The notes under the pieces: model-generated
Told to the model about the DNA's origin: nothing
The model's input: only the letters and a program-made list of their open reading frames with translations
Database searches by the model: none
Assembly (NCBI GenBank): GCA_001874005.1
Contig: MNYJ01000004.1
Span: 1 to 48,527, forward strand
Source of the DNA: Desulfobacteraceae bacterium CG2_30_51_40
GTDB lineage: Bacteria > Desulfobacterota > DSM-4660 > Desulfatiglandales > Desulfatiglandaceae
Direction of reading: 5' to 3'
DNA length: 48,527 nt
In this document: positions 1-19,389 of the stretch, piece by piece
How the letters are laid out: every line of letters begins with the position of its first letter
Numbering within the stretch: the first letter of the stretch is position 1
Translations under genes and position numbers: made by a program

Positions 1-78
1 GTGTTCTATGAGTTCCCGCACGGTGACGATGTCCCCGTCGGTAATCAAACGACCCTGGATAAGACTTGGAATCTTCAT
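1..78 (-). CDS. Start of a possible DUF4338 (DruA-like, transposon-associated) protein, cut by window edge
   Basis: Reading leftward from an ATG at 78-76, 26 codons stay open to the window edge. The peptide begins MKIPSLIQGRLITDGD and continues IVTVRELIEH. From memory, this matches the usual opening of DUF4338 proteins, where an LIQGR-x-IT-x2-D-I segment is followed by a short helix of the VRELI type; such proteins are found in transposon-like settings and as DruA of Druantia defence systems. Only the first 26 residues are visible, so the family call rests on a short motif and is tentative. No strong Shine-Dalgarno sequence precedes the ATG. It starts about 100 bases beyond the point where the neighbouring response-regulator gene stops resembling its family, which fits an insertion into that gene. 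Confidence 0.4.
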   Translation of the reverse strand, partial: MKIPSLIQGRLITDGDIVTVRELIEH

Positions 79-177
79 GGCCAACCAATCTGCCATATTA
101 TGGAATCAGAGTCCAGGAAAAAATGCAGTCGTTTGAAAAATTATCCCTTCAGATTAAAGAAGGGGTGTGGAATGTAG
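79..177. other. Junction between the truncated regulator and the left-edge gene
   Basis: This stretch separates the last regulator-like codons (about position 178) from the start codon at 78. It holds a perfect 11-base palindrome, CCATATTATGG at 93-103, and no other gene-like reading. It probably contains the end of the element that replaced the 3' part of the regulator, but no terminal inverted repeat can be paired because the other end lies outside the window. Confidence 0.4.
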
Positions 178-723
178 GACAAAATGCTCGATCAGGGCGG
201 GGATATCCTCTCTACGTTCCTTAAGAGCCGGTACTTTCAGGGTAATAACATTGAGCCTGAAAAAAAGGTCTTCTCTGAATTTGCCATTCTTTACCTCATG
301 TTCCAAATCTCTGTTGGTGGCGCTTATCAGCCGCACGTCTGCTCTAAGGACTTGGCTTCCCCCCACCCTCTGGAACTCTCCTTCCTGCAGAAATCTGAGG
401 AGCTTGACCTGTACGGAGGGAGACAATTCGCCGATTTCGTCCAAGAAAAGGCTACCGCCGTCTGCCTGTTCAAAGCGACCGATCCTCCGCTGATGCGCGC
501 CTGTGAATGAACCCTTCTCATGACCGAAAAGCTCGCTTTCTATGATGGACTCCGTTAGCGCCCCGCAATTTACCGTGATCAACGCCTTGCCGGACCGTGG
601 GCTCAATGTGTGCATCAGTCGGGCGAAAAGTTCTTTTCCGGTGCCGCTTTCTCCTTCTATCAAGACAGAGGCTTTGCTGCCTGCAATCCTTCCTGCAAGG
701 TTTATAAGCTCAGCCATTTTCAC
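154..723 (-). pseudogene. AAA+ sigma-54 activation domain of broken NtrC/ZraR-type response regulator
   Basis: This is the central domain of a sigma-54-dependent activator, which hydrolyses ATP to open promoter complexes held by sigma-54 RNA polymerase. Visible motifs are Walker A GESGTGKE (residues 24-31), the sigma-54 contact loop GSFTGA (71-76; GAFTGA in most relatives), Walker B SLFLDEIGE and the FREDLFFRLNV segment. It is in the same frame as the receiver domain at 745-1170 and is separated from it only by a TAG codon (745-747) and seven further codons. A GTG at 723 could restart translation, but no clear ribosome site is seen. Family resemblance stops after ALIEHF; a foreign tail VLHSTPLL and a stop follow. 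The sensor II part of the AAA+ domain and the Fis-type DNA-binding helix-turn-helix are therefore missing, so the product should not bind its sites. Loss by insertion of the element at the window edge is inferred. Confidence 0.85.
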
Positions 724-744: not shown

Positions 745-1170
745 CTAAGTTATGCTTTTCTCCTGAATTTGTCTTCGCAAAGTTTCATTTTCACGGATAA
801 GTGTCTTTCGCTCTGCCGCCTTCTTCAGGATAAGAAGCAATTCGTCCAGCTCTATGGGCTTTGTTATGTAATCTACGGCGCCTGCCTTCATGGCTTCAAC
901 GGCTGTCTCTATGGTTCCGTAAGCTGTTACCATTACTACATCCAGTTCAGGATTGATTTGCTTGAGGTCCTTGAGCACGTCAAGTCCATTTCGCCCAGGC
1001 ATCTTGAAGTCCATGACCACCACATCCAGGTCCCTGGCCCGAACAAGCTTGATTGCTTCCTCACCGTTTTCCGCGACGCTCACCCCATGGCCTTCCTTTG
1101 TCAAGAAATCCCTGAGCATTTCCCTCTGAGCGCGCTCGTCTTCAACAATCAAGATATCCTGCTTTTGCAT
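745..1170 (-). pseudogene. Receiver domain of the same broken response regulator
   Basis: A CheY-like receiver of 141 residues. The acidic pocket is at IVEDE (residues 8-12), the phosphoacceptor is Asp54 in VVMDFKMPG, the conserved Thr is at 82 and the Lys is at 104 in YITKP. It ends in the linker helix (ENETLRRQIQEK) that in NtrC-type regulators runs into the AAA+ domain. Here the linker meets an in-frame TAG at 747-745, and the reading after it continues as EQIVFKSVKMAEL, matching the linker of relatives. The defect is therefore a nonsense codon and not a frameshift. The start at 1170 is chosen because AAAGG lies just before it; an ATG at 1191 is possible. The gene follows its kinase by about 30 bases. 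A free phospho-receiver could still be made and act as a phosphate sink. Confidence 0.87.
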
Positions 1171-1203
1171 GATCAAACACCTTTCAGCCATCCCACTGAG
1201 GCA

Positions 1204-2973
1204 TCACCTCAGGGGGAGAATAATCTGAAAAACAGTCCCTTTTCCAGGCACGCTCTCAACAGAAATTTTCCCGCCGTGGGCCTGGATTATTTCACGGGCG
1301 ATAGGCAGTCCGAGCCCAAGCCCTTTTTCTTTGGTAGTGTACTCGAAATCAAATATCCGTTCAGTGTCCTTTTCGGCAATTCCAGCGCCTGTGTCCTTTA
1401 TCATTATAACCAGATGGTCGGAACGTGGGGAAACGCAGGAGACGCTAACCTTTCCCCTACCCTCGATTGATTCAACCGCGTTTTTCATAAGATTGAGCAG
1501 TGCCTGATGCATCATTGAGGCGTCCATCATGACAACGGCCTCGGGATCATCCCAGTAGAACTCGATCTCGATGCCCCTGGATTCAGCAAGTTCCTTTACA
1601 AGGATCAAGACTCGGTTAAGCACATCGGCTATTTTTCCCTGTTTGAAATCAGGGTGCCTTTCCCTTGCAGGTGATACGAATTCTTCAATGATCCTGTTGA
1701 GGCGCCTTATCTCCTCCCTGACCACCCCGAGGATATTCATGAATTCATCTTTGTTTAAGGACTCGGCGGGAGCAAATTCCCGCGCGATCCTCTGAATGGC
1801 AATGCTTACTGCATTTAGTGGGTTTCTTATCTCATGGGCAAACCCGGCAGCGATCCTCCCGAGAGAGGAAAGCCTTTCAGCCTGAGCAAGCCTTTTTCTC
1901 ATCTCCTGTATCTTTTTGGCGTGGCGCCCCTGAAGGCGGTAAAAGAGAAAAGCGGCTGCAACAAGAGCTGTCATCATGAGGAGGGCTGAAAGAAAGATAT
2001 GGCGCTGGTTTCTCTCCTTCAAACGAAACACCTCTTCCGTATCCATAGCTACCTGTGCAGTGCCTATCTGAATGCCTTCCAATCGCACGGGCGCGAATAC
2101 CTCCAAGAGCCTGGGAGAACCATCCAGAATCCTTCGACCCTCCCTGCCCGGCGCATCGGGTTTTGTTTTATCTGCTTCCTGAATGGAAACAAATGAGATG
2201 TCACCCCCGGCCGCCAGAAGATTACCGCTTGTATCTAAGACGGCAAAGTAATAGACCCCCTTTCGCCATCCCCTCTCCTCCACAGCCTCCTGGAAGGCCA
2301 CCTTGGAGGCCCTGTATTTGAGTCCTTCTCGGTTCAGCATCAAAAAGATCATTCCCGCGGATCTTTCCTTTTTGACCCCAACAATGGGGAATATCTCGCC
2401 TTTATCGTCTCTAGCATAAAAATTCAAAGCGACTGCGCCACCCGAATCAATCAACGATCTGATGTGCTTACCCATGCCTTGGGGAATCGGCGTGCTGGCA
2501 GATTGAATACTGCCTTCGTTATCAGTAACTATAATGCCAAGGATATTTTCCCGGATCTCGAACTCGCTTGTTTGGGTGGGCTCGGATGAAAATTCCTCAA
2601 GTCTGTGTTCAAGGGTCTTTGCTGTATCCAGAAGGCTGTTGAGGACTACTTCCTGAATTCTGAACCCTTCTTCAATGGCCTCTACATCAATAAAAGAGTT
2701 CTCTGCGCGGCCGGTTACCGCCATAAACTCTTTTAGCTTGTTCTGTGCCAATATCTCTACACTTTCTATGATTGTTTTCCCCTTATTTTCAAAGACATCA
2801 AGCAATGTATTTTGTGTGCGACCGATATCAAGAATCGCCGTGATAAAAAATAGGGAGACAATAATAAGACAGAACAAAACAAATATTACTGGAGGTAATA
2901 AAGGCGAGCTGAATACCGGCTCTTTACTATCGAGTCTGAATGGGTATCTCTTATTATTCGCTTCACCGCTCAC
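1204..2973 (-). CDS. Membrane sensor histidine kinase (ZraS/AtoS-like)
   Basis: The sensor of the two-component pair is 589 residues long. Transmembrane helices lie at about 27-49 and 326-346 and enclose a roughly 275-residue periplasmic sensor region that looks Cache-like in size. The cytoplasmic half has a HisKA domain with His380 in FAHEIRNPLNA, followed by a HATPase domain with the N-box Asn497 (LLNLMKNAVE), G1 DTGAGI (527-532) and G2 GLGLGL (551-556). All catalytic motifs look intact. The start is a GTG preceded by GAGGAGG. A sigma-54-type promoter (3093-3108) lies about 120 bases upstream. It faces a ZraP-like gene, the arrangement known for zraP-zraSR in enterobacteria, which suggests sensing of envelope or metal stress. 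Its partner regulator downstream is broken, so signalling by this pair is probably lost or redirected. Confidence 0.93.
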   Translation of the reverse strand: MSGEANNKRYPFRLDSKEPVFSSPLLPPVIFVLFCLIIVSLFFITAILDIGRTQNTLLDVFENKGKTIIESVEILAQNKLKEFMAVTGRAENSFIDVEAIEEGFRIQEVVLNSLLDTAKTLEHRLEEFSSEPTQTSEFEIRENILGIIVTDNEGSIQSASTPIPQGMGKHIRSLIDSGGAVALNFYARDDKGEIFPIVGVKKERSAGMIFLMLNREGLKYRASKVAFQEAVEERGWRKGVYYFAVLDTSGNLLAAGGDISFVSIQEADKTKPDAPGREGRRILDGSPRLLEVFAPVRLEGIQIGTAQVAMDTEEVFRLKERNQRHIFLSALLMMTALVAAAFLFYRLQGRHAKKIQEMRKRLAQAERLSSLGRIAAGFAHEIRNPLNAVSIAIQRIAREFAPAESLNKDEFMNILGVVREEIRRLNRIIEEFVSPARERHPDFKQGKIADVLNRVLILVKELAESRGIEIEFYWDDPEAVVMMDASMMHQALLNLMKNAVESIEGRGKVSVSCVSPRSDHLVIMIKDTGAGIAEKDTERIFDFEYTTKEKGLGLGLPIAREIIQAHGGKISVESVPGKGTVFQIILPLR

Positions 2974-3170: not shown

Positions 3171-3184
3171 CGACACAATTGTCG
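3171..3184. promoter_or_regulatory. Inverted repeat CGACA-N4-TGTCG, candidate activator site
   Basis: Perfect 5-base arms CGACA and TGTCG flank CAAT. It lies between the two divergent sigma-54 promoters, about 63 bases from the leftward one. The half-site recurs in the boxes at 3260 and 12849, where the second has TGTCCGACA. Binding by the ZraR-like regulator is inferred. Confidence 0.45.
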
Positions 3185-3259: not shown

Positions 3260-3274
3260 CGACATTTGTTGCCT
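3260..3274. promoter_or_regulatory. Candidate upstream activator box CGACATTTGTTGCCT
   Basis: This 15-base box matches, with one difference, the box at 12849-12863. It starts 118 bases before the -24 element of the promoter at 3378; the other copy starts 112 bases before its own -24 element. Conserved sequence and spacing in front of two related genes fit an enhancer site for one sigma-54 activator. Confidence 0.5.
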
Positions 3275-3377: not shown

Positions 3378-3394
3378 TGGCACAACCGCTGCAA
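3378..3394 (+). promoter_or_regulatory. Sigma-54 promoter of first ZraP-like gene
   Basis: TGGCACAACCGCTGCA has an exact TGGCAC -24 element and a CTGCA -12 element, with GG-N10-GC spacing. The predicted start is near 3404, which gives a leader of about 55 bases to the ATG at 3459. This is the best -24/-12 match found in the window. Confidence 0.78.
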
Positions 3395-3421
3395 TATCTG
3401 GTTGCACAACCGCTGCAGTAT
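3380..3421 (+). repeat. Two tandem copies of a promoter-core repeat, 24-base period
   Basis: GCACAACCGCTGCA occurs at 3380-3393 and again at 3404-3417, with related flanks (ATATC, GTATA). The first copy forms the sigma-54 core. The second lacks the GG of the -24 element because it is preceded by TT, so it is probably not a promoter but lies over the predicted start region. Confidence 0.7.
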
Positions 3422-3458: not shown

Positions 3459-3875
3459 ATGAAAAGTTCAACAAGAAAATTCGGAATGGTATTCGTGGGA
3501 GTGCTAGTGGTTATGTTTTTTGCATCCTTCGCACTTGCGGGCCCCGGCGGGTATGGTCGCGGGATGATGGGCAAGGGGGCCGGCGGCGGCCAGGGAATGG
3601 GCCCAGGTCAAGGCAATTGCTCCTACACAGGTTCGCTTACTGCGGAGCAGTCCAAGGAGGTGCAGACCTTGCGCGAAGGCTATATAAAGGAAATAACGCC
3701 GCTTCAGAACCAGCTCTTTGCCAAGAAGACCGAACTCAGGGTCCTATGGTCACAGGCAAATCCTGATAGGGCTGCGGTAATGGCAAAGCAGGCTGAACTC
3801 AATGAACTCCAAAGACAACTTCAGGAAAAGAACACTACATTCCAACTGGAGATGCGTTCTATCGCCGGAAGATAG
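3459..3875 (+). CDS. ZraP/Spy/CpxP-family periplasmic stress protein (first copy)
   Basis: A 138-residue secreted protein. The signal peptide covers about residues 1-26 (hydrophobic core VFVGVLVVMFFASFALA, cut before GPGG). A Gly/Met-rich segment follows, then a helical LTAEQ...L-x2-LR region typical of the heavy-metal-resistance/Spy fold, whose members bind metal or act as periplasmic chaperones. The start is fixed by AAAGGAGG at 3443-3450; upstream codons in the same frame give a Trp/His-rich extension that no relative would have. It is shorter at the C-terminus than the second copy at 13101, with which it shares the core ITPLQNQLF. It has its own sigma-54 promoter and is followed by two terminators. 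The exact substrate cannot be read from the sequence. Confidence 0.88.
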   Translation: MKSSTRKFGMVFVGVLVVMFFASFALAGPGGYGRGMMGKGAGGGQGMGPGQGNCSYTGSLTAEQSKEVQTLREGYIKEITPLQNQLFAKKTELRVLWSQANPDRAAVMAKQAELNELQRQLQEKNTTFQLEMRSIAGR

Positions 3876-3882
3876 AGCGATG

Positions 3883-3932
3883 AACCGAGCTGCAAATGGA
3901 TCAGTGTTATCATTCAATGCGGCTCGGTTTTT
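3883..3932 (+). terminator. Possible rho-independent terminator after first ZraP-like gene
   Basis: Arms AACCGAGC (3883-3890) and GCTCGGTT (3922-3929) pair perfectly and are followed by a short T run. The loop is long, about 31 bases, so strength is uncertain. Confidence 0.6.
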
Positions 3933-6538: not shown

Positions 6539-8895
6539 AGGCTACTTCCCTGGCAGTTAGAAAACGAATCGCATCCAGCGTAATAGCTTTTGCGCTTGTG
6601 GTTCTAGGAGCCTATGGACTGCTGAGCCTGCCGGTTAATTTCCTGCCGGATATGACCTATCCTATGATCAAGGTCAATATCTGGTGGAGAGGCGCCACAC
6701 CAGAGGAAATAGACACAAATATCGCTGACCCTGTGGAACGAATTATGGCCACTGTAGATGGGCTCGATTACCTTGAATCATCATCCATTGAAGGTATGTA
6801 CTCCCTCACAGCGAACTTTAAGTACTCTGTTGACTTGAACACGGCTTATCAAGATGCCCTGGCGGCCATGGCGAGAGTGGCCAGGCAGTTACCCAAGGAC
6901 ATTGATCCGCCGATTATATTCAAGGCTGATCCCACTCAGCTTCCTGTGGTTCAGCTTACTATACGCTCTGAAGAAAAAGACCTGGTGGAGATCCGCTCCT
7001 GGGTTGAGAACTGGCTTCAAAAGCAACTTCTCTCCGTTGCAGGGGTCGCGGGTACGGAGATAGTCGGGGGATTAAAGCGGGAAATCCGTGTGCATCTTGA
7101 TCCCGGGGCCATGGAAAAATACAGCCTTTCTCTCCAAACGGTTCTGAAGAGAATGCAGGAGGAAAACATTGATCAATTTGCGGGCCGTATTACTGCGGGA
7201 CCGCGTGAGATAATAGCCAGAACATCGGGAGAATACCGCTCTCTTGAGGAAATAAGAACAGTTGTCCTGGCGAGGAAGGGAGATGCTAAAATAACTCTGG
7301 AGGATATTGCCGAAGTAGTTGACTCCCATGAGCAGGTACGAGTAATTACCCGTCTGGGAGGCCGACCCTGCGTCAAGTTGAGTATCCTCAAACAGGCGGA
7401 TGCAAATACAGTGGAGGTTGCGGATGCCGTTAATAACAAAATAGAGGAACTGCGCCCTTCTCTTCCTGCCGGGATAGAGCTGGGTGTAGTTGAAAACCAG
7501 GCAGATTATGTCTTGCCTGCCCTAAGGGGTGTGCGCAATGCGGCAATTGAGGCTGCGATCCTTGTTCTAATAGTAGTTTATCTATTCCTGGGAAGCCTGC
7601 GCCAGGTTTTGGTAATGCTCCTTGCCTTGCCCATAACACTTGTCCTTAATTTCGCGATCATGAAATTGGCGGGTTTTTCCCTTAACATCTTTTCCCTGGG
7701 GGGCCTGGTGGTTGCTATAGGGGTGGTGCTCGACAACTCTATAGTGGTTATCGAAAATATTACCCGCCTTCGCCATGAAAGTTTGACAGGGTCAACAGAA
7801 GAGATTGCTATCGAAGGCACAAATCAGGTGGGTTCGGCGATACTCGCAGCCACCCTTTCTTTCATAGCTCTGTTTGTGCCTTTTCTTCTTGTGCCAGGCT
7901 TGACGAGCCTTCTTTTTAAGGAATTGATTCTCGTCATAGCCGGAATAGTTTCAGTAAGTTTGATAATTGCCGTGACCTTGACGCCTATGCTGACGGCGAT
8001 TCTCTTAAAGGGTAACGGTAACGCAGGACCAAGAAAAACGCTGTTTGAGAAGTTTTTTGATAAGGTCACTAGTCTGTATGGAAGGTCTCTTTCCTGGACC
8101 ATGCGGGAGAGATGGCTTACCTTTTCTTTTTTCATAATGGCACTGATCATTGCCGTCGCTCTGGCCCCAAGGCTGGGCAGCGAATTCCTCCCCCAGATGG
8201 ATGACGGCAGGATTATGATAAAGGCCAAACTCCCCACCGGCGCGTCTCTTAATGAAACCGACAGTGTCCTGCGACAAATAGAGGCACAACTGATCAATGA
8301 TCCCATTATTGAAAGCTATTTTACCTTGAGCGGCGGAAAAGTCCTGGGCCTTTATACCTATGAAATCGCAAACGAGGGAGAGGTTGATATCCAGCTTGTG
8401 CCGCGTCATAGTCGTAAAATAAGCACAAAGGATTACATAAAGACGCTGAGGCCTAAGGCAGTTGCGGTGTCTGTCCCGGGCGGCAAGGTTATTGTGACTC
8501 AAGCCAAGGTTAAGGGAATGCGTAAAATAGGAGAGGCAGATATCGAAATCAAGATAAAGGGCCAGAACCTTGGAACGCTTTTCTCTATTGCAAACGATTA
8601 CGCTAGACTCATGAGCGGCCTCAAGCAGTTTGCAAATGTCTATGTCACCATGGATATGAATAAGCCTGAATACCAGATAAGGGTGGACCGAACCCGGGCT
8701 GCAGAAATGGGCGTTTCGGTCTCGGATGTCGCCAATACGGCCAGATCCTTCCTGAACGGCGCAGTGGCAACCCGCTATAAGCAAGGTGATGATTTCTACA
8801 ATATCAGATTGATGATTGCCGAGAGCCGAGTTACCTCACGCAGTGATGTGGAGGGACTCCTTGTGAACACGAGCCAGGGGGGTACCTCAGGCTGA
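6535..8895 (+). CDS. RND efflux pump, N-terminal part of a frameshifted gene
   Basis: The inner-membrane proton-driven pump of the tripartite system. This reading gives 786 residues: TM1 at about 9-28, the first periplasmic loop, TM2-TM6 with VLDNSIVVIENI around Asp400 (the position of the proton-relay acid pair in AcrB; only one acid is present, as in many HAE-type relatives), TM7 and most of the second periplasmic loop. It ends early at TGA 8893-8895, after LVNTSQGG. The following bases in another frame continue the protein without a gap (YLRLRDVADVTEASG). The frames cross at a run of six G (8877-8882); seven G would restore one reading frame of 1021 residues, a normal RND length. Either the gene is broken, the run varies in length, or the sequence has an indel error. 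Without the last third the pump cannot assemble. Confidence 0.88.
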   Translation: MKATSLAVRKRIASSVIAFALVVLGAYGLLSLPVNFLPDMTYPMIKVNIWWRGATPEEIDTNIADPVERIMATVDGLDYLESSSIEGMYSLTANFKYSVDLNTAYQDALAAMARVARQLPKDIDPPIIFKADPTQLPVVQLTIRSEEKDLVEIRSWVENWLQKQLLSVAGVAGTEIVGGLKREIRVHLDPGAMEKYSLSLQTVLKRMQEENIDQFAGRITAGPREIIARTSGEYRSLEEIRTVVLARKGDAKITLEDIAEVVDSHEQVRVITRLGGRPCVKLSILKQADANTVEVADAVNNKIEELRPSLPAGIELGVVENQADYVLPALRGVRNAAIEAAILVLIVVYLFLGSLRQVLVMLLALPITLVLNFAIMKLAGFSLNIFSLGGLVVAIGVVLDNSIVVIENITRLRHESLTGSTEEIAIEGTNQVGSAILAATLSFIALFVPFLLVPGLTSLLFKELILVIAGIVSVSLIIAVTLTPMLTAILLKGNGNAGPRKTLFEKFFDKVTSLYGRSLSWTMRERWLTFSFFIMALIIAVALAPRLGSEFLPQMDDGRIMIKAKLPTGASLNETDSVLRQIEAQLINDPIIESYFTLSGGKVLGLYTYEIANEGEVDIQLVPRHSRKISTKDYIKTLRPKAVAVSVPGGKVIVTQAKVKGMRKIGEADIEIKIKGQNLGTLFSIANDYARLMSGLKQFANVYVTMDMNKPEYQIRVDRTRAAEMGVSVSDVANTARSFLNGAVATRYKQGDDFYNIRLMIAESRVTSRSDVEGLLVNTSQGGTSG

Positions 8896-9614: not shown

Positions 9615-10139
9615 ATGCACACTGATGATTTCAAAAGAAAGCTTACCGTAGCTTTCAGTGCCGACGCGGTCGGCTACAGCCGTTTGATGGGTGATGATGA
9701 GACGGCTACAGTCAAGACCTTGGAAGAATACAAGCAGGTAATGTCAGACCTGATCCTGGGGCACGGAGGTCGCGTTGTTGACTCTACCGGAGACAACCTG
9801 CTTGGGGAATTCGCAAGTGTAGTTGATGCCGTCAAGTGCGCGGTGGCCGTTCAAAATGCCCTTCGAGAGCGCAATGATGGCCTTTGCGAACAGCGAAGGA
9901 TGCTTTTTCGCATAGGCATCAACCTGGGAGATGTCATTGAGAAAGAGGGAAGGATTTATGGGGACGGTGTGAACATAGCCGCCAGACTTGAGTCCCTTGC
10001 CGATCCCGGCGGTATCTGCGTTTCCAAGACAGTAATTGACCAGATCGAAACGAAGCTGCCGTTCAGCTACGAGTATCTGGGTAAAAAGAGGGTAAAAAAA
10101 CATCGAAAAAACCATTCCCTCTTACAAGGTGCATTTTGA
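9615..10139 (+). CDS. Class III adenylate/guanylate cyclase domain, 5' part of a frameshifted gene
   Basis: A cyclase homology domain making a cyclic nucleotide from ATP or GTP in the cytoplasm. Metal-binding aspartates are visible at Asp17 (FSADAVGYSRLMGDDE) and Asp59 (VVDSTGDNLLGEF), and the transition-state Asn/Arg pair lies in VNIAARLES. The last normal residues are YLGKKRV; then an extra A in a run of seven (10094-10100) shifts the frame and gives a false tail ending at 10139. With six A the protein continues as KNIEKTIPSYKVHFEAAE into the reading at 10129-11505, giving 629 residues: cyclase, one TM, TolB-like domain, TPRs. This is a known arrangement for soluble-domain-first cyclases. 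It begins 15 bases after the RND gene and is probably in that operon. Confidence 0.85.
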   Translation: MHTDDFKRKLTVAFSADAVGYSRLMGDDETATVKTLEEYKQVMSDLILGHGGRVVDSTGDNLLGEFASVVDAVKCAVAVQNALRERNDGLCEQRRMLFRIGINLGDVIEKEGRIYGDGVNIAARLESLADPGGICVSKTVIDQIETKLPFSYEYLGKKRVKKHRKNHSLLQGAF

Positions 10140-11505
10140 AGCCGCGGAGAAGTTGGGAGCCTCATGTGAGGTTAATCCTGTGAGATGTTTGACCGCCCGC
10201 CGTTGGAAGGTGCTGGCTGTTGCCGCATTTTTGGTCGCCATCGGGTTGGCTGTTCTGCTTTACGGTATCGCTTCAAGAGAGGTTGTACCGCCTGAGGGCA
10301 GCCGTGTAAGCGAAGCGACCGGCCAAGAGAAATCCATCGCGGTGCTGCCTTTCAATAATCTCAGCGGCGATCCAGAGCAGGATTTCCTGAGCGATGGTTT
10401 GACGGAAGACATAATAACCGCCCTTTCGGCTATCCCGCGTCTCTTTGTTGTTGCTCGTAACACCTCCTTTACGCTCAAGGGAAAATCAGTCAATGTGAAA
10501 TCCGTGGGGCAGGGACTGGGTGTCAGATATATCCTTGAGGGAAGCGTTCAGACTGAGGCAGGGAGGGTGCGCATTACAGCTCAGCTTATTGACGCCGTGA
10601 CAGGCAATCACCTATGGGCTGAACGCTACGACAGGGAACTTAAAGACATCTTCGCGCTTCAGGATGATATTACCCTTAACATCTTGCAATCTCTCCAACT
10701 GACTATCCTGGAGGGGGAAAGGCATGGGCCGGCAGCCGGGCCTCCCAAAAGCCTTGACGCATATCTGAAGCTCCTCAAGGCAAAGGCATATTTCATGAGT
10801 TCAAAGAGAGCCGACAACGAAAAGGCCCGGCAGCTCCTGGAGGAGGCGGTCCTGCTTGACCCTGAGTATCCTTCAGGGTATGCCCTGCTTGCCAGGACTT
10901 ATCTGCGTGAGGTGTGGCTGGCTTGGAGTTCCGATTCAGCTAATGCTCTCAGAATGGCGCTTGAATTTGCGGAAAAGGCCCTGTCGCTTGATCCAAATGA
11001 CGGCTCCAACCATGCGCTCATTAGCCAGATATACCTGTTTCAGGAAATCTACGATAAGGCGCTCATCGAAGCAGAAAGGGCTGTTTCCCTTAGCCCTGGC
11101 TCTGTTGAAGGATACATTAGCCTGGGAATGACGCGCTGTTTTTCGGGTCAATTTGCAGAGGCATTACTGGCATATAAGGATGCCCTAAGGCTAGATCCGG
11201 CTCCCCCTGGCGGACTCTATTACCAAATTGGCAACAGTTATCTGATGATGGGAAATTTTGAGGAAGCAGGAAAGGCATATAGAAAGCTTTTGGCTGTCAA
11301 CCCCAATAGCTTATGGGCCTATGTTGGAATGGCGTCTCTCTACAGCATGTCCGGATTAACAAAGGAGGCTATTGAGGCAGGGAAAAAAGTTATCGAGATA
11401 AATCCCTACTTTTCTCTCAAGAACCTCGAAGAGATTTCTCCTTACAGAAATCCCGGCCACAAGGAGCGTCTTCTGGATGCGCTGCGCAAGGCAGGCCTGA
11501 AATGA
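10129..11505 (+). CDS. TolB-like/TPR portion of the frameshifted cyclase gene
   Basis: 458 residues. One transmembrane helix lies near 26-48 (WKVLAVAAFLVAIGLAVLLYG). A TolB-like N-terminal fold begins at KSIAVLPFNNLSGDPEQDFLSDGLTEDI; in these proteins it follows a cyclase or winged-helix domain. About five tetratricopeptide repeats (two-helix units such as ALLARTYLREVW, AEKALSLDPND, AERAVSLSPGS, YKDALRLDP, YRKLLAVNPNS) reach to the end. Resemblance begins upstream of the first ATG (10129), near 10097, showing that this is the second half of the gene starting at 9615 and was split by one extra A. If translated alone from 10129 it would lack the enzyme domain. Function as a sensor or scaffold is inferred from domains only. 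Confidence 0.85.
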   Translation: MHFEAAEKLGASCEVNPVRCLTARRWKVLAVAAFLVAIGLAVLLYGIASREVVPPEGSRVSEATGQEKSIAVLPFNNLSGDPEQDFLSDGLTEDIITALSAIPRLFVVARNTSFTLKGKSVNVKSVGQGLGVRYILEGSVQTEAGRVRITAQLIDAVTGNHLWAERYDRELKDIFALQDDITLNILQSLQLTILEGERHGPAAGPPKSLDAYLKLLKAKAYFMSSKRADNEKARQLLEEAVLLDPEYPSGYALLARTYLREVWLAWSSDSANALRMALEFAEKALSLDPNDGSNHALISQIYLFQEIYDKALIEAERAVSLSPGSVEGYISLGMTRCFSGQFAEALLAYKDALRLDPAPPGGLYYQIGNSYLMMGNFEEAGKAYRKLLAVNPNSLWAYVGMASLYSMSGLTKEAIEAGKKVIEINPYFSLKNLEEISPYRNPGHKERLLDALRKAGLK

Positions 11506-12672: not shown

Positions 12673-12848
12673 GTTCCTTTCCTGTTAAAGATTTTCTTGG
12701 AGATCCATCAAAAACCAGCTTCATCAGCCTAGAGAGGTGGTTTGTGAAGACTCCATTCTCGACAATCGTGTCGAATCCATGAAAAACTCTTCCATTCCAT
12801 TTATTATATTGGATTAATTATCTTTTTAAATCTATGCATAAAATTGTC

Positions 12849-12863
12849 CGACATTTATTGCCT
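12849..12863. promoter_or_regulatory. Candidate upstream activator box CGACATTTATTGCCT
   Basis: This box differs by one base from the box at 3260-3274 and lies 112 bases before the -24 element at 12961. Its left end overlaps TGTCCGACA (12846-12854), a perfect inverted repeat built from the same half-site as CGACA-N4-TGTCG at 3171. No gene was found between 12673 and 13100; this box, the promoter at 12961 and the leader are what that stretch holds. Confidence 0.5.
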
Positions 12864-12960
12864 TATGACGCCCGAACACACCTCATTCGTTAGTAATGGC
12901 CTCTAAAGAAAAACCTATTCCTTTCAATATGTTCTTCAGTTCAGATCCTATGCTCCATCC

Positions 12961-12976
12961 TGGCACTCAAGGTGCA
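12961..12976 (+). promoter_or_regulatory. Sigma-54 promoter of second ZraP-like gene and envelope cluster
   Basis: TGGCACTCAAGGTGCA has an exact -24 element TGGCAC and GG-N10-GC spacing, with a GTGCA -12 element. The expected start near 12988 leaves a leader of about 113 bases before ATG 13101. A 60-codon open frame crossing this site (12896-13078) has no family features and is not accepted as a gene. Confidence 0.7.
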
Positions 12977-13100: not shown

Positions 13101-13568
13101 ATGAGGCGAGTTATTTTTTCATTTGTTTTTTTGTCTTTGGCTCTCTGGGCCACTTCGGCATTTGCCGGCCCCTGGGGAAGAGGAATGGGCACAGGCGCCT
13201 TTGACTCACTTCCTGCTGAGGCCGCATTAGGTTTGACATCAGAGCAGTCCCAAAAGCTTCAAACGCTTAGGCAAGCTTATCTGGATAATATAACACCTTT
13301 ACAAAATCAGCTTTTCAGCAGGAAAGCCGAACTCAGGCTGCTCTGGTCCGCGCAAAACCCTGACCAAGAACAAATTGCCTCCAAGCAGAAGGAGATCAAC
13401 GAGCTTGAGCAGAAGATAGAGGAAATATCAACCAGACATCGGCTCGATTGCAGGGAGGTGCTGACACCGGAGCAAAGGGAGAAAGCGGCCAAGATGGAGG
13501 GAGGGAGGCATAGAGGCCCGGGGTGGAGATCCGGGAGAATGTCACAGGGGTGGAAAGGAGAAAACTGA
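13101..13568 (+). CDS. ZraP/Spy/CpxP-family periplasmic stress protein (second copy)
   Basis: 155 residues. Signal peptide MRRVIFSFVFLSLALWATSAFA is cut before GPWG. The helical core has LTSEQSQKLQTLR, ITPLQNQLFSRKAELRLLWS, a Glu/Lys-rich coiled segment, and VLTPEQREKAAKM, the second LTxxQ motif of this family. The tail is rich in Gly, Arg, His and Met, a possible metal-binding end. It is a clear paralogue of the protein at 3459 but keeps the C-terminal part which that copy lacks. GGAGG at 13087-13091 fixes the start. It is the first gene after a sigma-54 promoter and lies 29 bases before the ABC ATPase, so it probably leads that operon. Confidence 0.9.
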   Translation: MRRVIFSFVFLSLALWATSAFAGPWGRGMGTGAFDSLPAEAALGLTSEQSQKLQTLRQAYLDNITPLQNQLFSRKAELRLLWSAQNPDQEQIASKQKEINELEQKIEEISTRHRLDCREVLTPEQREKAAKMEGGRHRGPGWRSGRMSQGWKGEN

Positions 13569-13597
13569 ACCATGGATTTATCAGGAGGATTAGTGTC

Positions 13598-14302
13598 TTG
13601 GAACTTGTTACAGCAAAGGACTTAAAGAAGACTTACGGAACCGGTAATGCTGCCGTGGATGCCTTGAAGGGCGTGAGCTTCTCCGTTGAGAAAGGAGCAT
13701 TCCTTTCAGTTATAGGCCCTTCCGGAAGCGGGAAGACTACACTTCTAAACCTCATAGGATGTCTTGACAGGCCGTCAGAAGGAAGTCTTTCTGTTGCCGG
13801 GACAGAGGTATCCGGCTTGAGCCGAAGGGACGGGGCCAGGTTCAGAGGAAACAAAATAGGCTTTATTTTCCAGAGCTTCAACCTTATTCCAGTGTTGACA
13901 GTATTTGAAAATGTTGAATATCCTCTCGTGATGGTTCAGGAGGTGCCCGCCTCCACCAGGAGTAAGCGCATAATGGCGCTTCTGGAGGCGGTCGGAATGG
14001 CTGATCAGAAGAAGAAACTTCCAGATCAGCTTTCAGGAGGCCAAAAACAGCGGGTTGCCATTGCAAGAGCGCTTGTGACCCATCCCGAGCTTGTGCTTGC
14101 AGATGAACCGACTGCAAATCTTGATAGGGATACCGCGCAGTCCATCATAAGGCTTATGAAGACCATCCGAAATGATTTCCAGACCACCTTTATATTCTCA
14201 ACTCATGACGCAAGGATAATTGATGAGGCCGAGCGTATCCTTCGCATAGAGGACGGAAGGCTTACTTCAAACGGCAATAACGGAGGCATACGACATGACT
14301 AA
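13598..14302 (+). CDS. ABC transporter ATPase, LolD/MacB type
   Basis: 234 residues from the chosen TTG. Walker A is GPSGSGKTT, the Q-loop is FIFQSFNLIP (the SFNL form typical of MacB/LolD/FtsE), the signature is LSGGQKQRVAIARAL, Walker B is LVLADEPTANLD and the H-loop is STHD. All are intact. The TTG at 13598 is preferred to upstream codons because AGGAGG at 13583-13588 is correctly placed and it gives the family length. It overlaps the FtsX-type permease by 8 bases, the usual pairing for type VII ABC systems, which use ATP in the cytoplasm to drive lipoprotein or periplasmic substrate movement and do not pump through the membrane themselves. Confidence 0.92.
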   Translation: MELVTAKDLKKTYGTGNAAVDALKGVSFSVEKGAFLSVIGPSGSGKTTLLNLIGCLDRPSEGSLSVAGTEVSGLSRRDGARFRGNKIGFIFQSFNLIPVLTVFENVEYPLVMVQEVPASTRSKRIMALLEAVGMADQKKKLPDQLSGGQKQRVAIARALVTHPELVLADEPTANLDRDTAQSIIRLMKTIRNDFQTTFIFSTHDARIIDEAERILRIEDGRLTSNGNNGGIRHD

Positions 14303-15536
14303 CACCTTGAGAATTGCCGTCAGGAACCTCTTTCGTTACAAGAGAAGGACCATTCTGACCCTTAGCCTGATCGTCCTGGGAATAATGTTCGTATCCATCT
14401 TTATTGCAGTTACCGGATCGTTCAAGAATATGATGATCGGCCAGATGACTGACTCCATGCTCGGGCATATCCAAGTCCACAGAAAGGGATATCTCGCTGC
14501 AATAGACAATTTACCCCTTAACCTGAATATGAAGTCTCAGGCATATAAGAAACTCGAAAAAACGCTCGATGACCTGCATGAAATTGAAGCCTACTCACCC
14601 AGGATCAAATTTGGGGGCATGTTCAGCACCTTTGTGGAGACGACCAATATACGGCTTAACGGTGTTTATCCCGATAGAGAATCAAAAACCGTCCCGCTGC
14701 TTCCCTCAAGGCTTATTGAGGGTAAAGGCGCGACCCTCAGTAAGGGTGAAATATGGATTCCGGAACTTATGTCCAAGAGCATGAAAGCAAAGATGGGAGA
14801 CATGATTGTCATCATCGCCACCAACCAGGACGGCTCGGTCAACGGCAAGCAGTTTAAGGTCTCGGGCGTCCTTGAAAGCGTCACAGGGCCGGGCGGCAGG
14901 GACGGCTATATCCACATCGAGGACGCAATGGAGGTACTTAGAATGGAGAATATGGAGATAAGCGAGGTGGCTATACGTCTCAAGAATTTCGGGGATATGA
15001 ATCCCCTGAGCAGCAAACTTGACACTCTCCTTGCCTCCCAGCTCAACAAGCAGGGCAAGCCCATGTTCGAGGTTCACACCTGGGAGAAGCTTTCGCCCTT
15101 CTACAACATCGCTCGTATGATTGACATCATGACCCTTTTCATAAAAATCATGCTTATTGCCATTGTGCTGATAAGCATCATGAATGTCATGATCATGGCG
15201 GTTTACGAACGGATTAGGGAGATAGGAACAATAGCAGCAATTGGCACCCTTCCGGGAAGAATCCTTTCCATGTTCGTCCTTGAAGGGTTTTGCATGGGCG
15301 CGGCAGGCACCGTGATAGGGGGTGTCTTGAGTGCCCTAATCATATATTTTGCCAACATGGCCAGGATCACCTTCGATTTCGGCAGGCAGACCGGGCTGGT
15401 CCTCTCGGCAGCCATAAGCCTTTCGGAAATTTTGACCATTTCAGGCATTGTCATTGCGGTTTCCATTGTCGCAAGCCTCCAGCCTGCTCTTAAAGCGGCG
15501 AGGATGGACCCCATCGAGGCACTGGGACATGTATGA
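14295..15536 (+). CDS. ABC permease with FtsX/MacB fold (LolC/E-like)
   Basis: 413 residues with the type VII layout. TM1 is at about 18-40 (RRTILTLSLIVLGIMFVSIFIAV), a large periplasmic domain lies at about 45-270 (MacB_PCD-like), then three helices near 275-300, 325-350 and 375-400. The cytoplasmic coupling helix ends in the usual (A/S)LxPAxKAAxxDPxEAL form, here SLQPALKAARMDPIEALGHV. It overlaps the ATPase gene and is followed after about 50 bases by a LolA-like gene. That neighbour suggests lipoprotein or hydrophobic-ligand transfer toward the outer membrane, but the substrate is inferred only. Confidence 0.92.
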   Translation: MTNTLRIAVRNLFRYKRRTILTLSLIVLGIMFVSIFIAVTGSFKNMMIGQMTDSMLGHIQVHRKGYLAAIDNLPLNLNMKSQAYKKLEKTLDDLHEIEAYSPRIKFGGMFSTFVETTNIRLNGVYPDRESKTVPLLPSRLIEGKGATLSKGEIWIPELMSKSMKAKMGDMIVIIATNQDGSVNGKQFKVSGVLESVTGPGGRDGYIHIEDAMEVLRMENMEISEVAIRLKNFGDMNPLSSKLDTLLASQLNKQGKPMFEVHTWEKLSPFYNIARMIDIMTLFIKIMLIAIVLISIMNVMIMAVYERIREIGTIAAIGTLPGRILSMFVLEGFCMGAAGTVIGGVLSALIIYFANMARITFDFGRQTGLVLSAAISLSEILTISGIVIAVSIVASLQPALKAARMDPIEALGHV

Positions 15537-15587
15537 AGGCGCTGGCTCATGAATGAAATGGCGATTCAATTCGTTAGGAGATTTGGA

Positions 15588-16316
15588 ATGAAAGCATTGT
15601 TTTCTCTGTTGGCGGTTTTATTATGCGCGGCCCCGGCCTATGCCATTGATGGGAAGCAGCTCCTGGAACAAGTGGACAGAAATCTGGCCCCAGAGTCTTA
15701 TGAGCTATATAGAAAACTCATCAATATCGAACCGGATGGAAGGAAAAAGGAATTCGTCCTCTATACGGTGAAAAAGGGAAAGGACAAGATAGCAGGCCTT
15801 TTCATCGCGCCTGCCAGCGAGAAAGGCCGAAGCACCCTTCGCCTTGGAGACAACATGTGGCTTTATATACCCAATGTGGGGAAGCCCATAAGGATAACAA
15901 GCCTCCAGTCCGTCATTGGTGGCGTCTTCAACAATTCAGACATACTTCAGCTTGATTATTCGGAGGAATACGACGTGGCGAAGGTGGAGGATCTGGGAAA
16001 GGAATATCTTCTGCAACTAAAGGCCAGGACGAAAACCGTTGCATACGATCAACTCAAGATGTGGGTGGACAAGAAGAATGTGTCACCCACAAAGATCGAG
16101 TGTCTAACCGAGGCCTCCATGCTCATCAAGACCATCTATTTCAAGGACATAAAGGACTTTGGAGATGGACTGGTGAGGCCTGCATCGGTTGAGACGGACA
16201 GCCCTCTCTACAAAGGATACAAATCGGTTATGCTCTTTGCCAACTTCAAGAAAAAGGAAGTGGCCGATGAAGTGTTCACCTTGACCTTCATGCCCAACAT
16301 TGACTCGGTCAGATAG
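15588..16316 (+). CDS. LolA-like outer-membrane lipoprotein-sorting protein
   Basis: 242 residues, secreted. The signal peptide is MKALFSLLAVLLCAAPAYA, cut before IDGKQ. The remainder is an all-beta LolA/LolB-type fold of the COG2834 subgroup: FVLYTVKKGKDKIAGLFIAPASEKGRSTLRLGDNMWLYIPNVGKPIRI, then strands such as YLLQLKARTKTVAYDQLKMWVD. This subgroup usually accompanies MacB-type permeases or RND/MmpL exporters and is distinct from the housekeeping LolA. ATG 15588 has TAGGAG upstream and begins the signal peptide directly; an ATG at 15549 would add 13 residues. It is probably the periplasmic carrier of the cluster. Confidence 0.87.
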   Translation: MKALFSLLAVLLCAAPAYAIDGKQLLEQVDRNLAPESYELYRKLINIEPDGRKKEFVLYTVKKGKDKIAGLFIAPASEKGRSTLRLGDNMWLYIPNVGKPIRITSLQSVIGGVFNNSDILQLDYSEEYDVAKVEDLGKEYLLQLKARTKTVAYDQLKMWVDKKNVSPTKIECLTEASMLIKTIYFKDIKDFGDGLVRPASVETDSPLYKGYKSVMLFANFKKKEVADEVFTLTFMPNIDSVR

Positions 16317-16324
16317 CTCCTCCC

Positions 16325-17623
16325 ATGTGCCGAAGATTCTACTGGTGCATCCTGTGGTTTGCCGTTTTTCTGAGCACACAGGCGCAGGCCGAGGAGTTCA
16401 AGTTCGATCCCTCCGAGGTGGAGAAAAAACCTTACCACCTTGGGGGGTACCTAGAGCTGAAGCCTTCGGTTTCCCACACGGACAAGGAAGCTTCTCTTTA
16501 TAAACTTCGGTTTTATGATCGCTCCGACGAAGAAACCCTTAAGCAGATTTCAGGTACGGCCCAACTGGAAGGATCTCTTGAGAAAGGCATAGCAAGGCTT
16601 TTTGCCAGGGCTAACTTTGAGCTGGATCACTCCTATCTCGGCTGGAGCGATCAGGGCAAACTCTACGAGGGATACATGGCGCTTAAGCCGAGCGATTTAT
16701 TCAATCTTGCGTTGGGCAAGCAGACCATGAAATGGGGAAAGGGCTACGCCTGGAATCCGGTGGCCTTCGTTGACAGGCCCAAGAACCCGGATGAGCCCGA
16801 TCTTAATCTTGAAGGCTTCTACATGGCCTCGGCTAATCTCATCAAGAGCTTTGATGGGCCGCTTAAAACCATATCATTTACACCGGTTGTGATCCCTGCC
16901 TACGGTGATATAAACGATGATTTCGGAGAGCCCGACAAGCTCAATTTTGCGGCGAAGCTATATCTTCTTTACTATGACACGGACATTGATTTCATGCTTC
17001 TTGCCAAGGGAAGCAAATCCCCCCGCTATGGGTTTGATTTCTCCAGGAACCTTTTTACCAATCTGGAGATACACGGGGAGTTCGCCTGGCTGCCTGATTC
17101 AAAGAAAACTATGCTTGAGCCAACAGGAAAGACCCTTCAAGAAGAATCTGATGAAGCAAGTTATCTTCTGGGCCTGAGATACCTTAGCACGCTTGATACT
17201 ACCTATATATTCGAATACTACCACAATGGAACCGGGTATAGCGAGGCAGAGGGAGAGGAGTTCTTCTCATTTATAGGCCGGGGGTATGAGGACTATATCT
17301 CAGGAAGGGGCGATGCAGCCTTGAAGAAGGCGCAGAGTCTTAGCGAAGGCGGTTACGGAAGGCCCAACTTCATGAAGGACTACCTTTACCTGCGCGTCAG
17401 CCAAAAGGAACCTTTTAATATACTCTATTTCACCCCTGCCCTAACATGGATTCTTAACCTTGAGGATAAAAGCTTTACCCTTTCCCCGGAGATATTGTAC
17501 ACTGGCATCACCAACCTTGAGCTAAGAGCGAAGGGCTCTGTCCTGGTCGGAGACGATTTCTCCGAGTATGGAGAAAAGCAAAACGACTACCGCCTGGAAC
17601 TTAGGGTTCGATATTACTTTTGA
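16325..17623 (+). CDS. Predicted outer-membrane beta-barrel protein
   Basis: 432 residues. The signal peptide (CILWFAVFLSTQAQA) is cut before EEFKF. The rest is made of alternating amphipathic strands (for example LYKLRFYDRSD, GIARLFARANFELDHSYLGWS, LFNLALGKQTMKWGKGYAWNPV, YRLELRVRYYF) and ends in Phe after aromatic residues, the signal used by the BAM machine for barrel insertion. The KWGKGYAWNPV segment resembles DUF1302/alginate-export-like barrels, but no named family is certain. It begins 8 bases after the LolA-like gene, so the two are probably made together; it could be the outer-membrane end of the transport route. Confidence 0.8.
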   Translation: MCRRFYWCILWFAVFLSTQAQAEEFKFDPSEVEKKPYHLGGYLELKPSVSHTDKEASLYKLRFYDRSDEETLKQISGTAQLEGSLEKGIARLFARANFELDHSYLGWSDQGKLYEGYMALKPSDLFNLALGKQTMKWGKGYAWNPVAFVDRPKNPDEPDLNLEGFYMASANLIKSFDGPLKTISFTPVVIPAYGDINDDFGEPDKLNFAAKLYLLYYDTDIDFMLLAKGSKSPRYGFDFSRNLFTNLEIHGEFAWLPDSKKTMLEPTGKTLQEESDEASYLLGLRYLSTLDTTYIFEYYHNGTGYSEAEGEEFFSFIGRGYEDYISGRGDAALKKAQSLSEGGYGRPNFMKDYLYLRVSQKEPFNILYFTPALTWILNLEDKSFTLSPEILYTGITNLELRAKGSVLVGDDFSEYGEKQNDYRLELRVRYYF

Positions 17624-17689
17624 GGCATGCCACGGTCAGGAAGAGTTACATCCCTGCAAGGGGGACAAACAAAATGGGAAAATAGACTG

Positions 17690-18655
17690 ATGAAAGCAAT
17701 TGTCGCAGAAAAGCTTACCAAGAGATTCGGGGAGGTACAGGCCCTCCAAGACGTAAGCTTCGTTGTTCACCAGAGAGAACTTTTCGGCTTTCTTGGGCCA
17801 AATGGAGCCGGCAAGACCACTACAATAAACATCCTCACAGGTCTTGCCCGCCCCGACTCAGGGGTGATCCGGATCGGAGACATTGACTGCACAGACAACC
17901 CAAAGGCCGCCCAGCATCTGATAGGGGTTGTACCCGATGAGAGCAATCTTTATCCGGAATTGACAGGCTTTCAGAACCTGTGTTTCTGTGCCTCGCTCTA
18001 TGGTTTGAAAAAGAGCGAGAGGGAATCACGTGCAAGTGAGCTTCTAAAGTCCTTCGGCTTGGCTGAAGCCGCTTCCCGGAAGTTCGGAGGCTACTCCAAG
18101 GGCATGAAGCGCAAGCTCACCATTGCAGCGGGGATCATACATAATCCCTCCATACTTTTCCTGGATGAGCCCACTACAGGTATTGACGTCGCAAGCGCAA
18201 GACAAATAAGGCAGCTCATATCGCATCTAAACCTGTCAGGCACCACTATCCTCTTGACCACCCATTACATCGAGGAGGCGGAGCGACTTTGCGCGAGGCT
18301 TGCCTTTATCGTGTCGGGCAGGATCGTGCAGACTGATACGATCGAAAACCTTCTGCAGCCGATAAAGCAAAGACATGTAATGGAGATCGCCCTAAACAAC
18401 AAGGAAACCGGCTCGTTGGAAGCGATGGCTTCCGCGTTTCCGGATCTTGTTATCGAGCGCCGGGAGGAAAATAAGATTAGGGTGGAATCAAGTGAGCCCA
18501 TCCGTGCCGGCGCCCTTGTACGCTATTTGGAGGAAAGGGGCTTGGAGGTAATGGAGGCCAGGAGGATTCATCCGTCCCTGGAAGACGTCTTTGTGCGAAT
18601 CACCGGAATAGAGGCAGGGGCCATGAAAAAAGAGAGGGAGAGGTCCGGATCATGA
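17690..18655 (+). CDS. ABC transporter ATPase, ABC-2 export type (CcmA/NatA family)
   Basis: 321 residues. Walker A is GPNGAGKTTTI, the Q-loop region is VVPDESNLYPELT, the signature is YSKGMKRKLTIAAG (SKGMK instead of SGGMK, common in this family), Walker B is ILFLDEPTTGID and the H-loop is TTHY. A C-terminal extension of about 90 residues (from VMEIALNNKETG) is typical of DUF4162-like regulatory tails. Start 17690 is chosen because MKAIVAEKLTKRFG is the family opening; an upstream ATG at 17627 adds 21 unrelated residues. It overlaps the permease by ATGA. A 41-base piece of this gene (17982-18022) is copied in the scar at 21522. Confidence 0.92.
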   Translation: MKAIVAEKLTKRFGEVQALQDVSFVVHQRELFGFLGPNGAGKTTTINILTGLARPDSGVIRIGDIDCTDNPKAAQHLIGVVPDESNLYPELTGFQNLCFCASLYGLKKSERESRASELLKSFGLAEAASRKFGGYSKGMKRKLTIAAGIIHNPSILFLDEPTTGIDVASARQIRQLISHLNLSGTTILLTTHYIEEAERLCARLAFIVSGRIVQTDTIENLLQPIKQRHVMEIALNNKETGSLEAMASAFPDLVIERREENKIRVESSEPIRAGALVRYLEERGLEVMEARRIHPSLEDVFVRITGIEAGAMKKERERSGS

Positions 18656-19389
18656 AGATGTGGATTGCCTTCTGGAATATCATCCTAAAGGACATGCGCG
18701 CCTATTATCTCAAACCCCCGAACATAAGCTGGGGAATCATATTTCCCCTTGCCTGGACAGGGATGTTTTTCATCAGATCAGGAGGGGGATTTGACGGGGT
18801 TCTGACGCTTCTTCCCGGGCTTATGGCGATTTCCATCCTCTTCGGGACAACCTCGATGCTTGCAGTGACTGTAACGTTCGAGAAGAAGGGCCGTTCGTTC
18901 GATAGGCTCCTCCTTGCTCCGATACCACTAGGCATCCTCATGCTCTCAAAGACCTCCGGCGCGATAGTCTTCGGGATTGCTAACGCCTTTGTGCCTGTGG
19001 CCATGGCGGCGTTTTTCTTTGATCTGTCAAGCGTAGCGTGGCTCACGGCCTTTCCGGCTGTTGTCTTGATAGCGGTTTCTTCCACGTTCCTCGGTCTTTT
19101 CATCGCAGTTTCCGTAAGCGAGGTATTTGAGGCTCAGACCTTCTCCAACTTCTTCCGCTTTCCCATGATATTTCTCTGCGGTCTTTTCTTTCCCATTGAA
19201 CGCCTGCCCTCTGTTATCAAACCCCTTTCATATATCCTGCCCCTTACCTACGGAGCCGATATACTTCATGGAGCATTCAGCCAGGGGCATACCATGCCAT
19301 TCGGCCTTGACTTCGCCCTGCTTGGGGCATCCTGCGTTTTTCTCTATCTATGGAGTCTTAAAAACATCAAGCGGCGATGGATACTCTGA
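18652..19389 (+). CDS. ABC-2 type export permease
   Basis: 245 residues with six predicted helices, the size of NodJ/DrrB-type permeases. Helices lie near IIFPLAWTGMFFI, TLLPGLMAISILFG, TSGAIVFGIANAFVPVAMAAFFF, LTAFPAVVLIAVSSTFLGLFIAVSV, FPMIFLCGLFFPIERLP (the conserved FLCGLFFP segment just before the last helices) and FALLGASCVFLYLW. It partners the ATPase at 17690 to form an exporter and ends the plus-strand cluster that began at 13101. The last bases of the gene and the following bases (19364-19396) are copied in the scar at 21563-21595. Confidence 0.9.
   Translation: MKMWIAFWNIILKDMRAYYLKPPNISWGIIFPLAWTGMFFIRSGGGFDGVLTLLPGLMAISILFGTTSMLAVTVTFEKKGRSFDRLLLAPIPLGILMLSKTSGAIVFGIANAFVPVAMAAFFFDLSSVAWLTAFPAVVLIAVSSTFLGLFIAVSVSEVFEAQTFSNFFRFPMIFLCGLFFPIERLPSVIKPLSYILPLTYGADILHGAFSQGHTMPFGLDFALLGASCVFLYLWSLKNIKRRWIL

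Follow-up and report, generated by a model that had tools for sequence, protein, structure and literature searches.

A dyad-and-box operator before zraP-like and Lol-like genes points to a Zra-type sigma-54 regulon with an apparently broken regulator in one deltaproteobacterial genome

The ZraP-ZraS-ZraR system of Escherichia coli is a zinc-activated, sigma-54-dependent envelope stress system, and its zraP/zraSR spacer (L306) contains inverted copies of GAGTAAAAATGACTC together with sigma-54-like elements facing both ways. A role in regulating the response to envelope stress, through only a handful of targets, has been proposed for E. coli ZraR (PMC7657598). Two further cases come from Desulfovibrio vulgaris: DVU3381 is described as a sigma-54 regulator that targets DVU3382-DVU3381 and DVU3384 and is linked to envelope stress (PMC3333781, PMC4641369), and DVU0539 and DVU0946 are described as paralogous sigma-54 regulators with one shared motif (PMC3333781). 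The locus considered here lies in a window of 48,527 nucleotides, which is the whole stretch of DNA analysed, and belongs to a kind of system that is already known; what is new is its operator code, the presence of a Lol-like operon in its regulon, and a broken regulator.

The layout matches that of the Zra system; as in E. coli, zraP is divergent from a kinase-regulator pair, with the operators in the common spacer and a sigma-54 promoter. Unlike the E. coli system, the operator is CGACA-N4-TGTCG rather than inverted GAGTAAAAATGACTC, the recognition helix is LGISERxLRYKL rather than LGITRKTLLAKL, the NCBIfam cut-offs for ZraS, ZraR, and ZraP are all missed, and the apparent regulon includes a Lol-like transport operon. 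The locus resembles DVU3381, as described, in that a deltaproteobacterial sigma-54 response regulator would control itself and a neighboring envelope-stress gene; it differs from the DVU3381 regulon, compared by its available description and not by motif, in the two-site code of dyad and box and in the Lol operon. With DVU0539 and DVU0946, in the description available, it would share the arrangement of two sigma-54 regulators using one site, inferred here for a zraP-type regulator and one of a second type encoded on contig C220; the genes and sites are others, and the promoter classes found here differ in a second site. The features of the window, with UAS1 and UAS2 denoting the dyad and the box, are as follows.

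1-178, minus strand: mobile-element end, inserted in the regulator gene
179-723, minus strand: AAA+ sigma-54-activator part of the cognate regulator, cut off ahead of the DNA-binding domain
745-1191, minus strand: receiver part of the cognate response regulator, up to an in-frame TAG (745-747)
1204-2973, minus strand: sensor kinase, closest to NCBIfam ZraS but under its cut-off (227 of 479 bits)
3171-3184, no strand: UAS1 of the first zraP-like gene, perfect dyad CGACA-CAAT-TGTCG
3260-3274, plus strand: UAS2 serving the first zraP-like gene, 15-base box CGACATTTGTTGCCT
3378-3393, plus strand: sigma-54-type -24/-12 element TGGCACAACCGCTGCA, 1 mismatch to consensus
3459-3875, plus strand: first ZraP-like protein (43% identity with the second), C terminus apparently frameshifted
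12760-12773, no strand: UAS1 of the second zraP-like gene, perfect dyad CGACA-ATCG-TGTCG, conserved in relatives
12849-12863, plus strand: UAS2 before the second zraP-like gene, 15-base box CGACATTTATTGCCT, the one originally reported
12961-12976, plus strand: sigma-54-type -24/-12 element TGGCACTCAAGGTGCA, 1 mismatch to consensus
13101-13568, plus strand: second ZraP-like exported protein (Metal_resist, PF13801)
13598-14302, plus strand: LolD-like ABC ATPase, whose homologues elsewhere lie directly behind UAS1 and UAS2
14295-15536, plus strand: LolC/E-like (MacB/FtsX) permease
15549-16316, plus strand: LolA-like outer-membrane lipoprotein-sorting protein (PF17131)
16325-17623, plus strand: probable outer-membrane protein without Pfam match, encoded in the same operon
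17627-19389, plus strand: two genes, for an ABC-2 type ATPase and permease, that come next with no gap

The original prediction was that a 15-base box and a sigma-54 promoter recur before the second ZraP-like gene, and this was confirmed: the pattern CGACATTTRTTGCCT occurs at 3260 and 12849, 118 and 112 bases ahead of the -24/-12 elements at 3378 and 12961, and the window holds no further match at up to two mismatches. At the first zraP-like gene, a near copy of the -24/-12 element, TTGCACAACCGCTGCA (GGTTGCACAACCGCTGCA), lies 24 bases after 3378, at 3402. Sigma-54-like strings are not rarer in the window than chance would have it (20 found against 22 expected); consensus matches by themselves were therefore dropped as evidence, which leaves the boxes as the carriers of the signal, in need of outside support. 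The earlier observation was correct but incomplete, in that a second shared element had been overlooked: a perfect dyad, CGACA-N4-TGTCG, precedes both boxes (at 3171 and 12760), in each case by exactly 89 bases. The 75 bases that separate dyad from box are identical at 26 positions between the two copies (p about 0.1), so the control regions are not simply a recent copy of one spacer, and a recent duplication of the entire control region is unsupported. Across the 3.44-Mb genome the dyad occurs at four sites (two in the window, one inside a gspE-like coding sequence, and one on C220), three of which lie ahead of sigma-54-like elements; a genome-wide over-representation was rejected, as the reversed control also gave four. 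The box core CGACANNTNTTGCC has only five copies in the genome (reversed control, one) and so is not freely scattered, which answers the first refuting condition set with the original prediction. Of the three copies beyond the window, two fall in long open frames, and none has a -24/-12 element within 200 bases.

Outside support was found in related bacteria. With the second ZraP-like protein as the query, 60 relatives were searched, the closest homologues being taken as the best 20 besides the window's own (E about 1e-17 or better) and the upstream thresholds as at most one mismatch for the dyad, two for the box, and one for the -24/-12 element. UAS1, UAS2, and the -24/-12 element were all present upstream in 18 of these 20, so that the box does precede the zraP-like genes of close relatives. 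None of the eight more distant zraP homologues having upstream sequence showed a dyad or box at these thresholds, and their sigma-54 element was perfect in seven and near-perfect in one; the signal is therefore a property of one zraP group and not of zraP generally. In 118 genomes scanned for the dyad with a -24/-12 element, 37 sites matched and the reversed pattern matched 2, and a scan across the order for dyad plus box gave 29, again against 2; the signal is conserved in more than 20 genomes.

Over 38 assembled sites, the UAS1 consensus is TTCGACA-N4-TGTCGAA and that of UAS2 is TCGACATWTNTTGCC(G/T). Because these sites were partly selected on their central bases, conservation counts there are upper bounds, and the informative parts are the flanking TT/AA, the TTGCC of the box, and the spacing. 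The distance from UAS1 to UAS2 is 30 to 32 bases in 30 cases and 86 to 99 in 7, the window's 89 included; the longer distances themselves fall at 86 to 89 and 98 to 99 bases (L152 to L154, L283, and the window). The two spacing classes are about 5.4 helical turns apart, and the sites therefore seem to differ between them in relative helical face. Two findings count against the model in the window itself: its spacings (89; 118 and 112) are unlike the usual 31 to 32 and about 102, although 86 to 99 recurs elsewhere, and its promoters have CTGC or GTGC as the -12 element, versus TTGC in most dyad-bearing homologues.

In at least a dozen relatives, the dyad/box spacer lies between zraP and a divergent kinase orthologous to that of the window; beyond the kinase, in every case where the contig extends far enough, comes a sigma-54 response regulator with receiver and AAA+ domains. 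Identity to the window is about 30% for the kinase, about 50 to 60% for the receiver, and about 70% for the AAA+ part. The recognition helices of these regulators are nearly invariant (LGISERxLRYKLKKYG), and their scores miss the cut-offs of both AtoC (514 of 714) and ZraR (471 of 760). The intact NtrC-type set of receiver, AAA+ domain with GAFTGA, and HTH_8 is present in relatives (L046), not in the window. A scan of named genomes with the kinase alignment returned mostly unrelated kinases and few full-length orthologues of use, and the same-genus genome G001 (66% complete) has no clear orthologue of the kinase. The conserved neighborhood and the private operator, taken together, make the regulator of the divergent pair the probable binder of the sites.

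We consider it likely that dyad and box form a two-site enhancer, UAS1 distal and UAS2 proximal, of this NtrC-type regulator, and that with the regulator disrupted here the promoters are either silent relics or served by the C220 paralogue. From the sites, promoter-like elements, gene content, and synteny, we infer a course of signal, phosphorylation, binding, and transcription in which envelope stress would lead the kinase to phosphorylate the response regulator encoded beside it; the phosphorylated regulator would bind UAS1 and UAS2, loop to the -24/-12 promoter, and open it, activating the zraP-like chaperone genes together with the LolD/LolCE/LolA-like lipoprotein-transport operon and a small number of further envelope genes. 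In related bacteria the probable effect of the regulator is to activate a small group of genes for repair of the cell envelope. In the present genome the sites persist, and the cognate regulator is disrupted. The two ZraP-like proteins of the window match PF13801 over its cut-off (3.7e-14 and 8.3e-18) and show 29% identity to E. coli ZraP; they do not reach the NCBIfam ZraP equivalog (46 and 32 of 200 bits), and the N-terminal HGGHG and C-terminal His/Cys-rich stretches of E. coli ZraP are absent from both. A frameshift near the end of the first zraP-like gene (3860 to 3930) is suggested by the stretch LSPEDRAM in another frame, which is like the LTPEQR with which the family usually ends.

The prediction of a small regulon of envelope genes is supported by the genes that the signal precedes in relatives. 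It stands ahead of a LolD/LolCE/LolA-like operon in five other genomes; dyad and box lie directly before a LolD-like ABC gene homologous to 13598-14302 in G020, G008, G061, and G034, and in G013 an operon zraP-ABC-FtsX-LolA-OMP, equivalent to 13101-17623 of the window, and the divergently oriented kinase flank a single control region. Dyad and box also precede FecR/DUF6600 genes (G005 and G066), an adenylate cyclase/TPR gene that resembles 9615-11505 of the window (G055), small exported-protein genes (G008, G011, and G057), and another exported-protein gene (G029); the ECF sigma factor gene of G021 has dyad and promoter without a clear box. In several relatives (G072, G029, G010, G016, and G032) the LolA-like operon lacks the signal. 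Of the cluster 13101-19389, which had been assigned to the regulon as a whole, the Lol-like operon is upheld by G013 and by the LolD-like genes, and 17627-19389 is included by gene adjacency alone. The Lol equivalog cut-offs are not reached (LolD, 228 of 308 bits; LolCE, 117 of 362), and LolA-like is assigned by PF17131 only; judged from these scores, the window genes represent a putative paralogous Lol-like exporter. The LolA-like gene nearest to that of the window (83%; L282, G072:C3) lies in a genome assigned to a different family and is closer than any copy from the window's own family; horizontal transfer of the operon is possible. A Lol-like lipoprotein transport operon would in this way be tied to a Zra-type stress signal, and the operator code of dyad, box, and spacing lets an envelope-stress regulon be read from sequence in many, mostly uncultured, bacteria.

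The cognate regulator is interrupted twice in the window. The in-frame TAG at 745-747 falls between the receiver and the AAA+ domain, and with no PylS gene over the cut-off, read-through as pyrrolysine is unlikely and TAG is presumably a stop. Regulator homology then ends at 179, where a repeated element begins, and copies of this element on C207, C71, and C44, as well as a diverged one on C214, have their ends at that base or only a few bases away from it. The C-terminal half of the regulator, with the DNA-binding domain, was found at C3:7187-7564, joined to the element's other end, and TTTTGTC is present on both sides of the insertion as a target duplication of 7 bases. The assembly contains no further copy of the regulator gene. 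On C44 (8797-9220), the two ends of a diverged copy of the element are joined to each other, as though its interior had been deleted; the C3 part of the split region (7187-7843) is locus L090. The stop and the insertion make present control by the kinase at 1204 doubtful. The prediction that this kinase governs the cluster therefore holds for ancestry, by the orthologous pair divergent from zraP, and, barring a mixture of strains in the assembly, probably no longer applies to the organism as it is now; the break is seen in a fragmented metagenome-type assembly and could be explained by strain mixture.

If the cognate regulator is lost, the surviving sites might now be read by the response regulator of C220, so that the C220 kinase would control the zraP promoters. 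On C220, the dyad lies 87 bases ahead of TGGCACAATCCTTGAA and a small exported-protein gene, in an operon (L057, 7420-13000) that encodes small, glycine-rich exported proteins and a probable outer-membrane protein along with a kinase and a regulator; none of three nonregulatory proteins scanned matched Pfam. Its regulator carries LGISERVLRYK; of the roughly two dozen such regulators in the genome, it is the sole intact one that matches the zraP-type helix, which makes it, as a hypothesis, the best substitute candidate and the protein most likely to be still acting on the window promoters. Cross-regulation after loss is favored further by the dyad being kept 86 to 90 bases before the -24 element of such operons in seven genomes, the same-genus G001 included, and by the precedent of the motif-sharing paralogues DVU0539 and DVU0946, as described (PMC3333781). 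In all seven genomes, however, the C220-type promoters invariably carry a half-site (TGTCG or CGACA) at +28/29 and lack the box throughout, and this, with the shorter distance, suggests that the systems are kept apart. We regard such a takeover as a tenable minority possibility. UAS1 would be common to both systems, with the second site telling them apart. An extension, in which the box or the half-site at +28/29 selects which of two paralogous sigma-54 regulators acts on the shared UAS1, and in which the zraP-type regulator is dead here and its promoters perhaps passed to the C220 type, would amount to rewiring in progress, and we hold it to be doubtful. The pair nevertheless offers a test case for how enhancer-binding paralogues with near-identical recognition helices, one of them broken here, stay apart.

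The regulator could also be intact in the living population, with the kinase at 1204 running both promoters through it; the TAG and the element end would then reflect either an error of assembly or a strain present as a minority. The fragmentation of the assembly (229 contigs), the end of contig C16 within a repeated element, and the apparent frameshift at the end of the first zraP gene are in keeping with this; it is made unlikely by the presence of two independent lesions, by the joining of the C-terminal half on C3 to the element's other end with a matching 7-bp duplication, and by an assembly that holds no intact copy of the gene.

The reading of the box as a second enhancer site has its own competitor, namely that the box has nothing to do with the regulator and is bound by something else, such as a protein that bends the DNA between enhancer and promoter. 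Its position between UAS1 and the promoter would suit such a role, and its right half, TTGCC, is well conserved yet unlike the dyad half TGTCG. The left half, however, is the dyad half CGACA (CGAC in 38 of 38 sites and the final A in 37 of 38, both upper bounds), CGACA-N5-TGCCG retains four of five bases of the second half, and the usual spacing of UAS1 and UAS2 is three helical turns, all of which renders an unrelated site quite improbable. That the box is a chance repeat in AT-rich spacers, as might have been thought from the only two copies in view originally, is refuted by its recurrence in more than 20 genomes against reversed-pattern controls of 2, and we give it virtually no weight.

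A third zraP paralogue, on contig C218, was considered as a further target of dyad and box and rejected. It has other sites, GGATAAAAAGTATCC and GGATAATAAGTATCC, and the helix of its regulator is like that of E. coli ZraR; its own sites and ZraR-like helix suggest that two separate Zra-like circuits exist side by side in the genome. At this third zraP-like gene (L006, 2127-2141 and 2171-2185), the sites form a pair of inverted repeats of the form GGATA-N5-TATCC.
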